DNA of 64,000 nt, from the NCBI GenBank assembly GCA_945882415.1, contig CAMCWC010000001.1, positions 186,001 to 250,000 of the forward strand. Direction: 5' to 3'. Made by a program: the position numbers and the translations under genes. Shown here piece by piece: positions 47,082 to 51,539 of this stretch. The notes under the pieces are model-generated. The model was not told the DNA's origin. It did not search any database and saw only the letters and a program-made list of their open reading frames with translations. This DNA comes from Chthonomonas calidirosea. GTDB lineage: Bacteria; Armatimonadota; Fimbriimonadia; Fimbriimonadales; Fimbriimonadaceae. How positions within the stretch are numbered: the stretch's first letter is position 1; each line of letters opens with the position of its first letter.

Positions 47082-47156
47082 TGGAGCCGGCGACAGGACT
47101 TGAACCCGCGACCCGCTGTTTACAAAACAGCTGCTCTACCACTGAGCTACGCCGGC
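47082..47156 (-). tRNA. tRNA-Thr(TGT)
   Basis: Acceptor GCCGGCG/CGCCGGC, discriminator T, encoded CCA. Anticodon stem GCTGT/ACAGC with loop TTTGTAA gives anticodon TGT (Thr, ACA). D-arm GTAGCTCAGTGGTAGAGC and T-loop TTCAAGT are canonical. 75 nt. Confidence 0.97.
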
Positions 47157-47211: not shown

Positions 47212-47958
47212 TCAGATTCCGTTCTTGCGCTGTCGCAGCTTGGCGTTGATCGTGCCGTCGGTGGTCCAAATTCGCGGGAAGAACTGTCCGGTGGCGTTAT
47301 CTCGTCGAGCGCCGGTGATGTAAATCTTGCCTTCGAACGCGAAAGCGACAAACATGCTGTAATCCCAAGATACGTTGGAGTCTCTCGCTTCCCACAGAAT
47401 GGCGCCGGTGTTCTGGTGCCGAATCGTCAGGCTCGGATAGCTTCCGGACTGAGAGTAGTCTTTGACGCGGTTGTGCTCCACATAAACTGGAACTCGGCGG
47501 TCTCGCTTCGTCGCATAAAACGAGCCAGCCTGAAACACATCGGTTTCCTGCGCTTCATTGATGTAGTCAAACTGGGCGGCAGACTGTTCTAGGATCGAAG
47601 TTGTTGTCGAGCGCCAGACCCGGCCGACACTGCGGGAAAAATCGGTGGCGTCTTTGATGCCGATGACCACTGCTTGTCCGTTCTCAAAGAAGGCGGCAAC
47701 CGGGTTGTAATCCCATGCGGCGTTGTTATCTCGGCTCGAGAGAAGGCGAAGGGTCATCGACTTATCCGACCAGACTTCGAGTCCCGGATTGTTGCCCGTA
47801 CCCGTCGCGTCCATATCCGAATCGAAGGTAATGATCGCGTACGGGTAAGTCATGCCGTTGTGCTTGAGCGAGCCAGAAGCAATGGTTTTCGGAACTGCCA
47901 TAGCAACGGCGGATACTAGACAAAACATCGGTAAAAGAAGGGCTCGCATTAGGTTCAC
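47212..47958 (-). CDS. Secreted tandem paralogue A with internal duplication
   Basis: 248 residues. Signal peptide (LLLPMFCLVSAVAMA). The mature protein holds two related units: SRDNNAAWDYNPVAAFFENGQAVVIG and ARDSNVSWDYSMFVAFAFEGKIYITG, each D-N-x-x-W-D-Y-x4-A-F. The C-terminus GARRDNATGQFFPRIWTT is almost identical to that of the second copy. No known family. A 12-nt sequence and a hairpin upstream are shared with the second copy. Confidence 0.8.
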   Translation of the reverse strand: MNLMRALLLPMFCLVSAVAMAVPKTIASGSLKHNGMTYPYAIITFDSDMDATGTGNNPGLEVWSDKSMTLRLLSSRDNNAAWDYNPVAAFFENGQAVVIGIKDATDFSRSVGRVWRSTTTSILEQSAAQFDYINEAQETDVFQAGSFYATKRDRRVPVYVEHNRVKDYSQSGSYPSLTIRHQNTGAILWEARDSNVSWDYSMFVAFAFEGKIYITGARRDNATGQFFPRIWTTDGTINAKLRQRKNGI

Positions 47959-48293: not shown

Positions 48294-49031
48294 CTAACCG
48301 TTCTTCCGCTGCCGAAGGCGACTTCCGACCGCACCTTCGGTGGTCCAGATGCGAGGGAAGAACTGCCCGGTCGCGTTGTCTCTCCGAGCACCCGTAATGT
48401 ACAGTTTTCCTTCGAAAGCAAAAGCTACGAATGCACTGTAATCCCATGTTGCATTGTCGTCCCGAGCCTCAAAGAGAATGGCCCCCGTGACTTCTTCCCG
48501 GACCGTTAGACCAGGGAACGGCCCAACTTGCGCGTAGTCGTCGTTGCGATTGTGCTCAACGTAAGCCGAGAAGCGATCACATCGTTTGTCAACCGGGAAG
48601 AGACCAGCCTGAAAAACGCCGGGTGTCTGCGAGTCATTGAGAAATCCATAATGGGCGGGCGATTGCTTTAGAATGGATCCTCGACTCGAACGCCACACCC
48701 GGCCAGCGCTGACCGAGCCGTCAGCCGCATCGCGAAAGCCAAGCACGACGGCTTGACCGTCTTCGAAGAATGCCGCCTCAGGGAAGTAGTTCCACTGGGC
48801 ATTGTCATCCTTGCTACTCATAAGGCGCTTTTTCAGGGACTTATCGGCCCAGACTTCGATTCCAGGGTTTGTGCCGACCGCAGAATCGTCGAGCTCGAAG
48901 TCATAAGTGATGACCGCGCGCTCGTACGTCTTTCCGCCGAACTCCAGCTCACCTTTCGCAATGATCTCCGGAGCCGCCATGGCCGCCGACGAAACGACGC
49001 TTAACAACACTAAAAGAACTGGTCTCTTCAT
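48294..49031 (-). CDS. Secreted tandem paralogue B with internal duplication
   Basis: 245 residues. Signal peptide (VLLVLLSVVSSAAMAA) then the same two-unit arrangement as paralogue A: SKDDNAQWNYFPEAAFFEDGQAVVLG and ARDDNATWDYSAFVAFAFEGKLYITG. C-terminus GARRDNATGQFFPRIWTTEG. About half identical to paralogue A by eye over the whole length and higher at the end. Distance between copies is 335 nt, with no shared gene, so this is a duplication. Confidence 0.8.
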   Translation of the reverse strand: MKRPVLLVLLSVVSSAAMAAPEIIAKGELEFGGKTYERAVITYDFELDDSAVGTNPGIEVWADKSLKKRLMSSKDDNAQWNYFPEAAFFEDGQAVVLGFRDAADGSVSAGRVWRSSRGSILKQSPAHYGFLNDSQTPGVFQAGLFPVDKRCDRFSAYVEHNRNDDYAQVGPFPGLTVREEVTGAILFEARDDNATWDYSAFVAFAFEGKLYITGARRDNATGQFFPRIWTTEGAVGSRLRQRKNG

Positions 49032-49195: not shown

Positions 49196-50269
49196 TTACA
49201 ATGCCCCTAACGCAAAGGCATCAAGCTGCGTTTCGGAGAAACGATAGCGGGGAATATCCCCCGGTCCAAAGTTGAGCTCAACCAACGGACGAATAACCTG
49301 CTCCGTCACCACCGAGTCCGCTAGCTCCTTCCGAAGAGAGGCCATCTGCAGCAGCATCACCTGCAAGTGCACCTTTCCCAGGGCCAGCGATCCCACCCGC
49401 CGGCCTTCATCCGTCGTCAACGTTTGGCCAAGGATGCAGCGAGCAATTTCGCGGTTGTGAAAATCAATCGCGTCGATAAAGCCGGTCGAAGCGGTTGTAT
49501 CACCCCCAATCGCCGAGACCTCGAACTCCTTTGGAAACACCATCGCTCCCGAATTCGCCAGTTGAGAAAGGCTTCGAAACAGGGAGTCCGTCTCGTCTGC
49601 GGAGACCGTCCGGTCAAATCGCCCCAGCATGGTGGGCGAAGCAAACCGCTCCAAGTGCACTCGCCAGCCTTCAATCAGACCCCGCTTAGCCTGCCAGTGC
49701 GTCCGAGCCGCCTCAAGGTCGGACCGTCCTTTCGGCATTGCCGGCGAGGTCCGGTAGCGGTAGATCACAAACTTTTCCTTTGGCAAATCTTGCTCGGGCT
49801 CGCCCGGAAACTGAAGGTGAAGTCCGTCCAAGCGACCGAAAGAATCCATGTTCAGACCAAACAAGCTTGCGTTCTTCGGCCGCACCGCGTCGAGCCAAAC
49901 CCCATCTGCATCCGTGGAGAACACTAACTCCTGCACGCTCCAGCCTTTGGCGAACGCATCCATCGCGGCGTAAAGAACCTGCTCCACGCTGCCCTCCATT
50001 CGTTCAAAAGCCCGCTGAACAAACTCCAGAATCCGCGCCGCGCGAGCCGAATTGTTGGCTGGAACAAGTTCTGCCGGAGCGGCCAGGACTCCCAATTTCT
50101 TGACTTGCAGCGCGGTTTGCACCATCGAGTCCAATTCCATTTGGTCATAAACCAAGGTGCTCGGTAGACCCGGCATCTTAGCGATCCTTCGGTCGCTCAG
50201 GGTGAGTTGAGCCGCGACTTCGGCGGGCGTTGACGATTTCGAAACGAGATTTTTGAGCCAGTTAAGCAT
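49196..50269 (-). CDS. Phage Mu-type portal protein (DUF935-like)
   Basis: 357 residues from the ATG at 50269. LDSMVQTALQVKKLGVLAAPAELVPANN, VEQVLYAAMDAFAKGWSVQELVF, and GWRVHLERFASPTMLGRFD are characteristic of DUF935 portal proteins, the dodecameric DNA gate of the capsid. TGQTLTTDEGRRVGSLALG-like core includes LGQTLTTDEGRRVGS. It overlaps the terminase by 8 nt. No head or tail genes follow within the window. Confidence 0.88.
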   Translation of the reverse strand: MLNWLKNLVSKSSTPAEVAAQLTLSDRRIAKMPGLPSTLVYDQMELDSMVQTALQVKKLGVLAAPAELVPANNSARAARILEFVQRAFERMEGSVEQVLYAAMDAFAKGWSVQELVFSTDADGVWLDAVRPKNASLFGLNMDSFGRLDGLHLQFPGEPEQDLPKEKFVIYRYRTSPAMPKGRSDLEAARTHWQAKRGLIEGWRVHLERFASPTMLGRFDRTVSADETDSLFRSLSQLANSGAMVFPKEFEVSAIGGDTTASTGFIDAIDFHNREIARCILGQTLTTDEGRRVGSLALGKVHLQVMLLQMASLRKELADSVVTEQVIRPLVELNFGPGDIPRYRFSETQLDAFALGAL

Positions 50270-51539
50270 AGGAAAATTGGATCTTTGGAGCAAGGCGGAT
50301 GCAGCCGCTGAGTCGGGAAGGGAGGTGGCGCGCCGCGAGCATCACGGCGGTCACGAGGTCGTCGTGCTCCGACCCTTTGGCGCCGTAGCGGATGTTTCCC
50401 GCGGAGGTTTCGGAGGAAACATAACTCGCGAGTTCGCGTTCTAGGACCGGGTTTGGCTGCATTCGCAGGAGCTTGTTGCCCAGCAGCCGCGCCAAAGCGC
50501 AAACCATCTCCTCCTTTCCGCCCGAAGTGAAGGTGATGTCGGTGATCGAGAAGCGGGGCAGTTGACTTCGCAAAAGCTCGGCGGCAATAACGCCAAGCCC
50601 CGTGCTGTCCTGAAAGATGCGCGCTCCGGGATACCGCCGAATCACTTCGACCACTTGCGCACAAATGTCCTGAAAGTGCGGACCGTGAAAGCGCGCTAGG
50701 CCGACCAGCCAACATTCGTCCCTTGTGCCCGAAACGATCGCGACCGCGGTGAAGTCCTTCGTCTTCGCCCAGTCCACTCCAATCGTGAATGGACCAGAAA
50801 ACGAGCTTGGCCACTCGTAACAACGGGCATCGTCGATGCTCTCCTGAGTAAAAACCGCCCCCGCCGCCTCGCGAAACACTGCTTCGTACTCGACTTCAAA
50901 ACTGCGCGGCGAAGACTCGTTCTTCTTTGCCGCCAGAAAGTGACGAGAAACCCGAGGGTTCTCCGAGCTTGGCGATCGTCGAGACCAAATTCCGTCCTCG
51001 CCTCTCTCGCCGCGGTCGAAAAGTCGCCAAAACCAGTTGAACCCGTTCGGCGTGCTGATGCAAGTCAGGTACCCGTCGGTCGTCGAGAGCATCGGCGTCA
51101 ACACCTCCGTCACCAAGGCTTCGGGGACGAAAGCTGCTTCATCCACGATCACATGGTCCGCTTCGTCGCCGCGCAAACTGTCTGGCGCATGGCCCGACCG
51201 CGCGGTAACCACGTGCCCCTCAAACTCCAGCACCGGAAACGGCGTGTTCTTGGGGCGGTACTTCGTGATGTCCTTGGTGACTTTTCGCTGGTAATCATCG
51301 AGCAATCGGCAAACCCGTCGAAACAGGATTTTCGCCTGCTCCAGGGTTGGTGCGACCATCAGCTGCCGGCTCGGCGGTGACCGGAGAATTCGGTGCAGCA
51401 CGTCCACCGCACAAGCCTCCGTTTTGCCCCACCTTCGCCCGCAGGCCAGGGCACGAGTCTTTGCATGGGCAAGGAGAAATTCACGCTGCCCAACGTGCGG
51501 TTGCCAAATGCCGGCAATCCGCTGAAGAAACTGTTCCAT
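50262..51539 (-). CDS. Phage terminase large subunit
   Basis: 425 residues from the ATG at 51539, preceded by TAGGAG. The ATPase part has Walker A GRRWGKTE (34-41) and Walker B HVIVDEAAF; the nuclease part has IGVDWAKTKDFTA with the metal Asp, QDSTGLGV and GSEHDDLVTAVMLA. This is the motor that packages DNA. The only phage-like companion in the window is the portal gene. All key motifs are intact, which argues for conservation rather than decay. Confidence 0.92.
   Translation of the reverse strand: MEQFLQRIAGIWQPHVGQREFLLAHAKTRALACGRRWGKTEACAVDVLHRILRSPPSRQLMVAPTLEQAKILFRRVCRLLDDYQRKVTKDITKYRPKNTPFPVLEFEGHVVTARSGHAPDSLRGDEADHVIVDEAAFVPEALVTEVLTPMLSTTDGYLTCISTPNGFNWFWRLFDRGERGEDGIWSRRSPSSENPRVSRHFLAAKKNESSPRSFEVEYEAVFREAAGAVFTQESIDDARCYEWPSSFSGPFTIGVDWAKTKDFTAVAIVSGTRDECWLVGLARFHGPHFQDICAQVVEVIRRYPGARIFQDSTGLGVIAAELLRSQLPRFSITDITFTSGGKEEMVCALARLLGNKLLRMQPNPVLERELASYVSSETSAGNIRYGAKGSEHDDLVTAVMLAARHLPSRLSGCIRLAPKIQFSYA

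Follow-up and report, generated by a model that had tools for sequence, protein, structure and literature searches.

Terminase and portal genes of a probable gene-transfer-agent-like head system in Fimbriimonadales chromosomes

A terminase and a Mu-type portal gene that stand among ordinary genes in Chthonomonas calidirosea probably (we put it at about 0.76, judging from sequence) encode the packaging motor and the portal of a phage-head system that its bacterial hosts have domesticated and carry as a fixed part of their chromosomes, a gene-transfer-agent-like viriform of the order Fimbriimonadales (Armatimonadota). The pair lies in a window of 64,000 nucleotides (G000:C1:186001-250000) of a 3.36-Mb genome, G000, which comprises 38 contigs and is 99 % complete. 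In this genome the system is split into two loci: terminase and portal on the one hand and, about 26 kb away, protease, decoration and capsid genes with a putative adaptor and a likely stopper on the other. Comparison of genomes establishes its gene content, its unity, its vertical inheritance, purifying selection and the loss of synteny.

The name “gene-transfer-agent-like” is used because three of the six features by which gene transfer agents (GTAs) are defined, a list that also includes the packaging of mostly random host DNA and its delivery to other cells (PMC9662315), are found in the genomes. One is the use of proteins that descend from those of tailed phages (terminase, portal, Mu gpT capsid, decoration, neck folds), another the endogenisation of the genes, often in several loci (two in G000, three in G041), and the third a mostly vertical inheritance (congruence with rpoB, all-or-none presence, a conserved site).

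The packaging pair and its head module

The terminase frame is intact and matches Pfam Terminase_6N (2e-12) and Terminase_6C (2.7e-9) as well as a PHROG terminase family (1e-46). The four motifs on which the sequence-only reading had relied (GRRWGKTE, HVIVDEAAF, VDWAKTKDF and GSEHDDL) are all present, and the catalytic residues of both the ATPase and the nuclease are invariant in the nine aligned members of the order (9/9). The portal, which had rightly been called Mu-type and intact, matches Portal_Mu (2.2e-61) and a PHROG portal family (8.1e-60). The longest terminase frame opens at TTG 51572 and that of the portal at TTG 50293, while the starts that agree with those of relatives (11 order members aligned for the portal) are ATG 51539 and ATG 50269, respectively. 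The portal start thus lies over the terminase stop in an 8-bp overlap, the two genes forming a coupled pair. Among phage records the best matches of both proteins are just about 25–30 % identical, those of the terminase being Thermus, Meiothermus and haloarchaeal phages.

The flanks are ordinary genes, as had been described: an ankyrin-repeat gene upstream and, downstream of the pair, two exported paralogues without clear family match. At this site they are common only to G014, a 94–97 % relative, and are for this reason left out of the unit; as candidates for additional members, none of the flanking genes is kept across genera. In a PADLOC search the head proteins had no defence-family match and the ankyrin protein gave a single weak one. 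A tRNA-Thr gene about 2 kb past the portal end is a candidate old integration site.

Features of the system and of related loci (positions without prefix are those of the window)
Feature	Location	Strand	Basis
Terminase large subunit (ATPase + nuclease)	50262..51539	minus	Terminase_6N/Terminase_6C/PHROG matches, motifs
Mu-type portal protein	49196..50269	minus	Portal_Mu and PHROG portal matches, order alignment
Head module (protease, decoration, capsid, putative adaptor, likely stopper)	G000:C1:262742-265652	minus	profile and fold searches
Mu gpT-type capsid protein	G000:C1:263498-264424	minus	order profile; PF10124 3.4e-55
Head protease	G000:C1:264879-265613	minus	order profile 1.6e-57
Exported paralogue	47212-47958		
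Exported paralogue	48294-49031		
tRNA-Thr	47082-47156		
Second terminase, L033	G018:C1:1389756-1390994		39 % identical to the window's
Second terminase, L037	G015:C29:81-1376		39 % identical to the window's
Chthonomonadaceae portal-protease-decoration-capsid locus, L173	L173:363-5344		
Chthonomonadaceae portal-protease-decoration-capsid locus, L174	L174:3773-9398		

That no other head or tail gene accompanies the pair holds for the window but not for the genome. The suggestion that head genes lie elsewhere proved correct, capsid, protease, decoration and neck genes being located on the window's own contig, with capsid and protease about 13 kb past its right edge, in a module that adjoins rseP/dxr. 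The search for genes of the same type in the rest of the genome, which had been proposed as a check, thus yielded the head genes and the protease but no tail. Its starting point was the observation that Chthonomonadaceae and Sumerlaeota portals adjoin a protease and a capsid gene. The capsid family from Chthonomonadaceae (PHROG 1005) was tried as the capsid of the order and has no match there; following the protease then uncovered, in several Fimbriimonadales, a module of protease, decoration and capsid (PHROG 976, 1731 and 371), and it was the protease with its surrounding genes that gave the correct capsid family. The G000 protease itself scores weakly against PHROG 976 (0.06), its identity being assigned via relatives through the order profile.

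Downstream of the capsid gene, much of the order has two small genes, whose AlphaFold models reach pLDDT 86 and 83. In Foldseek comparisons with solved structures the second resembles the lambda neck, the T4 neck, the R4C stopper and SPP1 gp16 (probability 0.84–1.00, with E-values of 0.009 or higher) and is likely to be the stopper. The first matches phage necks weakly, the SPP1 connector best (probability 0.44 and lower), and is tentatively taken for the adaptor.

Distribution, inheritance and selection in the order

A search of 60 relatives, which brings the set to 61 Fimbriimonadales genomes in all, found the terminase in about 40 genomes and a strong portal match in about 41, mostly in single copy; profile searches placed the capsid in about 39 and a strong protease in about 40. 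When the portal was searched against named genomes, high-identity matches came almost all from Fimbriimonadales/Armatimonadota, the nearest (97 %) being a pond metagenome genome. In the 52 genomes that are at least 90 % complete, terminase, portal, capsid and protease occur all together in 30, three of the four are found in five, none in 17, and one or two in no genome (0/52). The four genes behave as one unit across the order. Two genomes, G018 and G015, additionally hold a second terminase with no portal beside it.

The arrangement of the unit varies widely, from markers that neighbour one another in certain species to markers separated by about 1 Mb in others. In G034, nine genes (protease, decoration, capsid, two small membrane genes, adaptor, stopper, terminase and portal, the two neck assignments being those proposed above) are contiguous on one strand within about 6 kb, near trpS. 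Terminase and portal normally sit side by side in family f1, to which G000 belongs, and in family f5; in family f2 they are apart, as in the single-contig genome G041, where the terminase is at 2.27 Mb and the portal at 1.23 Mb. A check for the pair in syntenic position had been proposed; its flanks are not common between genera. The distance from head module to terminase-portal is about 26 kb in G000 and G014, about 20 kb in G029 and about 755 kb in G026. The three loci of G041 lie far apart on its single contig and span about 1 Mb, a distance that no one head-sized fragment would be expected to cover. Since the unit is contiguous in G034 and dispersed in single-contig G041, misassembly of a complete prophage, which had been named as a possible refutation, is excluded.

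The head module comes after rseP in a TrpS-M50-LysA-DXR-RseP block in G000, G014, G011 and G029, and the same block is present without it in genomes that lack the unit, among them G008, G017, G004, G013, G019 and G025. Across the 61 genomes, those bearing the unit are smaller (2.2–3.7 Mb) than those lacking it (2.5–6.5 Mb), with Mann-Whitney p of about 1e-5, and 6e-4 within family, in a test that ignores phylogeny.

The unit is inherited vertically, co-diversifies with its hosts and is under strong purifying selection. All five gene trees follow the rpoB tree (Mantel r 0.73–0.88) and have 11–15 of 24–27 splits in common with it, versus 0.1–0.2 in label shuffles; the capsid evolves even slower than rpoB (slope 0.75). 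Between G000 and G014, dN/dS is 0.053 for the terminase, 0.029 for the portal, 0.030 for capsid and decoration, 0.042 for the protease and 0.030 for rpoB. The range of 0.029–0.053 spanned by portal and terminase gives no sign, in this closest pair, of the relaxed selection that the sequence-only reading had named as a refutation. Other genome pairs reach about 0.26; dS is saturated or nearly so in some of them and the ratios can thus be read closely for the nearest pairs only. Disrupted terminase copies are found in G050 (an internal TAG), G009 and G043. Apparent stops in G015 and G018 were discarded as disruptions, both preceding the start codon. The idea of a domesticated function or a GTA locus split in pieces, put forward for the pair, is hence supported at the genome level by all-or-none co-occurrence, host-following trees and purifying selection.

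Tail genes and alternative readings

Tape-measure, tail-tip and contractile-sheath models (PF10145, PF13550 and PF04984) have no match in G000, and across the order they link no tail gene to it: strong tape-measure and tail-tip matches occur in few genomes, mostly where a second, prophage-type portal or protease sits, and sheath matches in nine genomes, most of them without the unit. When about 84 kb surrounding the unit in G000 and 60 kb in G034 were scanned with PHROG, no tail or integrase family appeared among the best 25 of 32 and the best 25 of 35 families, respectively. No small terminase or regulator was recognised with the unit, and holin and endolysin genes adjoin it in one distant relative only (L165). 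All of this, like the few disrupted terminase copies, weighs against the GTA-like reading. Either genes that escape recognition encode the tail, or it is taken from a resident phage, or there is none.

These results bear on what the head may be for. A domesticated head could serve a role other than transfer, as a protein or DNA compartment, in the release of DNA as a public good, or as an anti-phage capsid decoy. The lack of a tail gene in both the model searches and the flank scans would fit, as would the strong conservation, which denotes a useful function and leaves its kind unspecified. However, the terminase ATPase and nuclease, the portal and the probable stopper have been kept, and these are needed for packaging DNA and not for a plain compartment, nor do the head genes match any defence family; such a role is therefore judged unlikely.

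Capsid-forming satellites (cfPICI) possess their own head and packaging genes and no tail. The unit could be a relic or descendant of such an element that borrowed the tails of helper phages, all the more as its head, neck and packaging genes resemble their structural content and true prophages with tails exist in the order. Satellites, a family named in PMC11389934, are mobile, however, whereas the unit is fixed, dispersed, in single copy and vertically inherited, co-diversifies with its hosts order-wide and has no integrase family among the flank matches listed. In its present form it is not the mobile, sporadic, integrase-bearing island that a satellite would be, and even descent from one appears improbable.

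Ordinary prophage remnants in decay, as might be supposed from the few genes, the lack of tail or integrase nearby and a hot-spring survey in which comparable regions of Fimbriimonadales are classed as incomplete prophages (PMC8597652), are refuted by selection and phylogeny and retain next to no credibility: the frames are intact, the closest pair has dN/dS values close to the rpoB value, and the genes are co-inherited throughout the order with congruent trees. A prophage proper, with its tail and integration genes in one continuous genome, was likewise rejected: tape-measure and tail-tip models have no match in G000, and the flank families listed in the PHROG scans include neither a tail nor an integrase family.

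A probable gene-transfer-agent-like element and its relatives

In the GTA-like reading, protease/scaffold and capsid protein would assemble a small procapsid on the portal, and the terminase, which is without evident specificity because no small subunit is recognised, would cut chromosomal DNA and pump it in. Adaptor and stopper would then seal the neck, and particles released through lysis of a few cells may deliver their DNA to kin, whose ComEC could import it. ComEC is encoded in 60 of the 61 genomes; uptake is thus possible, but near-universal presence says nothing specific to the unit. A narrower version, offered tentatively as one possibility, is a head-only GTA, in which a capsid with closed neck and no self-encoded tail would package chromosomal DNA and pass it to kin via borrowed tails or via release and competence uptake. 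If true, this arrangement is without report in the searched literature, with possible parallels in Sumerlaeota and Chthonomonadaceae.

The 2022 classification knows functional GTAs of alphaproteobacteria and of one deltaproteobacterium, one spirochete and one methanogen (PMC9662315). The open-licence papers searched contain no report of a GTA in Armatimonadota. Like those of Rhodogtaviriformidae, Bartogtaviriformidae and Brachygtaviriformidae, the head genes of the unit derive from tailed phages, are chromosomally fixed at more than one locus, and are passed on vertically while co-diversifying with their hosts. In layout the unit resembles the Brachyspira GTA, whose terminase lies outside the structural cluster and which has no synteny between species (PMC9662315). 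In contrast, most structural genes of RcGTA are in one 14-kb cluster (PMC9836097), whereas the Fimbriimonadales unit is dispersed over up to three loci about 1 Mb apart (G041). It further differs from established GTAs by its occurrence in Armatimonadota, by its Mu gpT-type head and Mu-type portal, by the lack of recognised tail genes and in being known from genome sequence.

Among phages with Mu-like heads, Mu and P23-45 are portal/terminase relatives, and the IMG/VR contigs L276 and L278 carry the same capsid type (51 % identical), L278 also having portal, protease and decoration of the unit's types. Unlike the chromosomal unit, both have a PHROG 195 adaptor and are followed by what look like tail genes; L276 has a PHROG 290 tail protein. 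Two short IMG/VR contigs filed as viral, L121 and L277, hold pieces of such a unit and are probably bacterial chromosome; L121 also has an aldo/keto reductase gene.

Comparable loci occur elsewhere. The Sumerlaeota contigs L176, L183, L184 and L185 have loci in which portal, protease and decoration genes accompany a capsid gene of the PHROG 1005 type; several of these loci pass directly into ordinary genes and could be a parallel head-only element of another phylum; L180, by contrast, goes on into apparent tail genes. The two Chthonomonadaceae loci have a different capsid family, and a DNA polymerase IV-type gene follows that of L173.

Conserved throughout an order of Armatimonadota, a GTA-like set would represent a further, independent case of domestication, built on another type of head. 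The pattern of 30 genomes with all markers and 17 with none, together with the empty sites, offers a natural comparison for the effect of such agents on their hosts. Dispersal can conceal these systems from prophage finders, and single “stray” terminases merit a whole-genome check.
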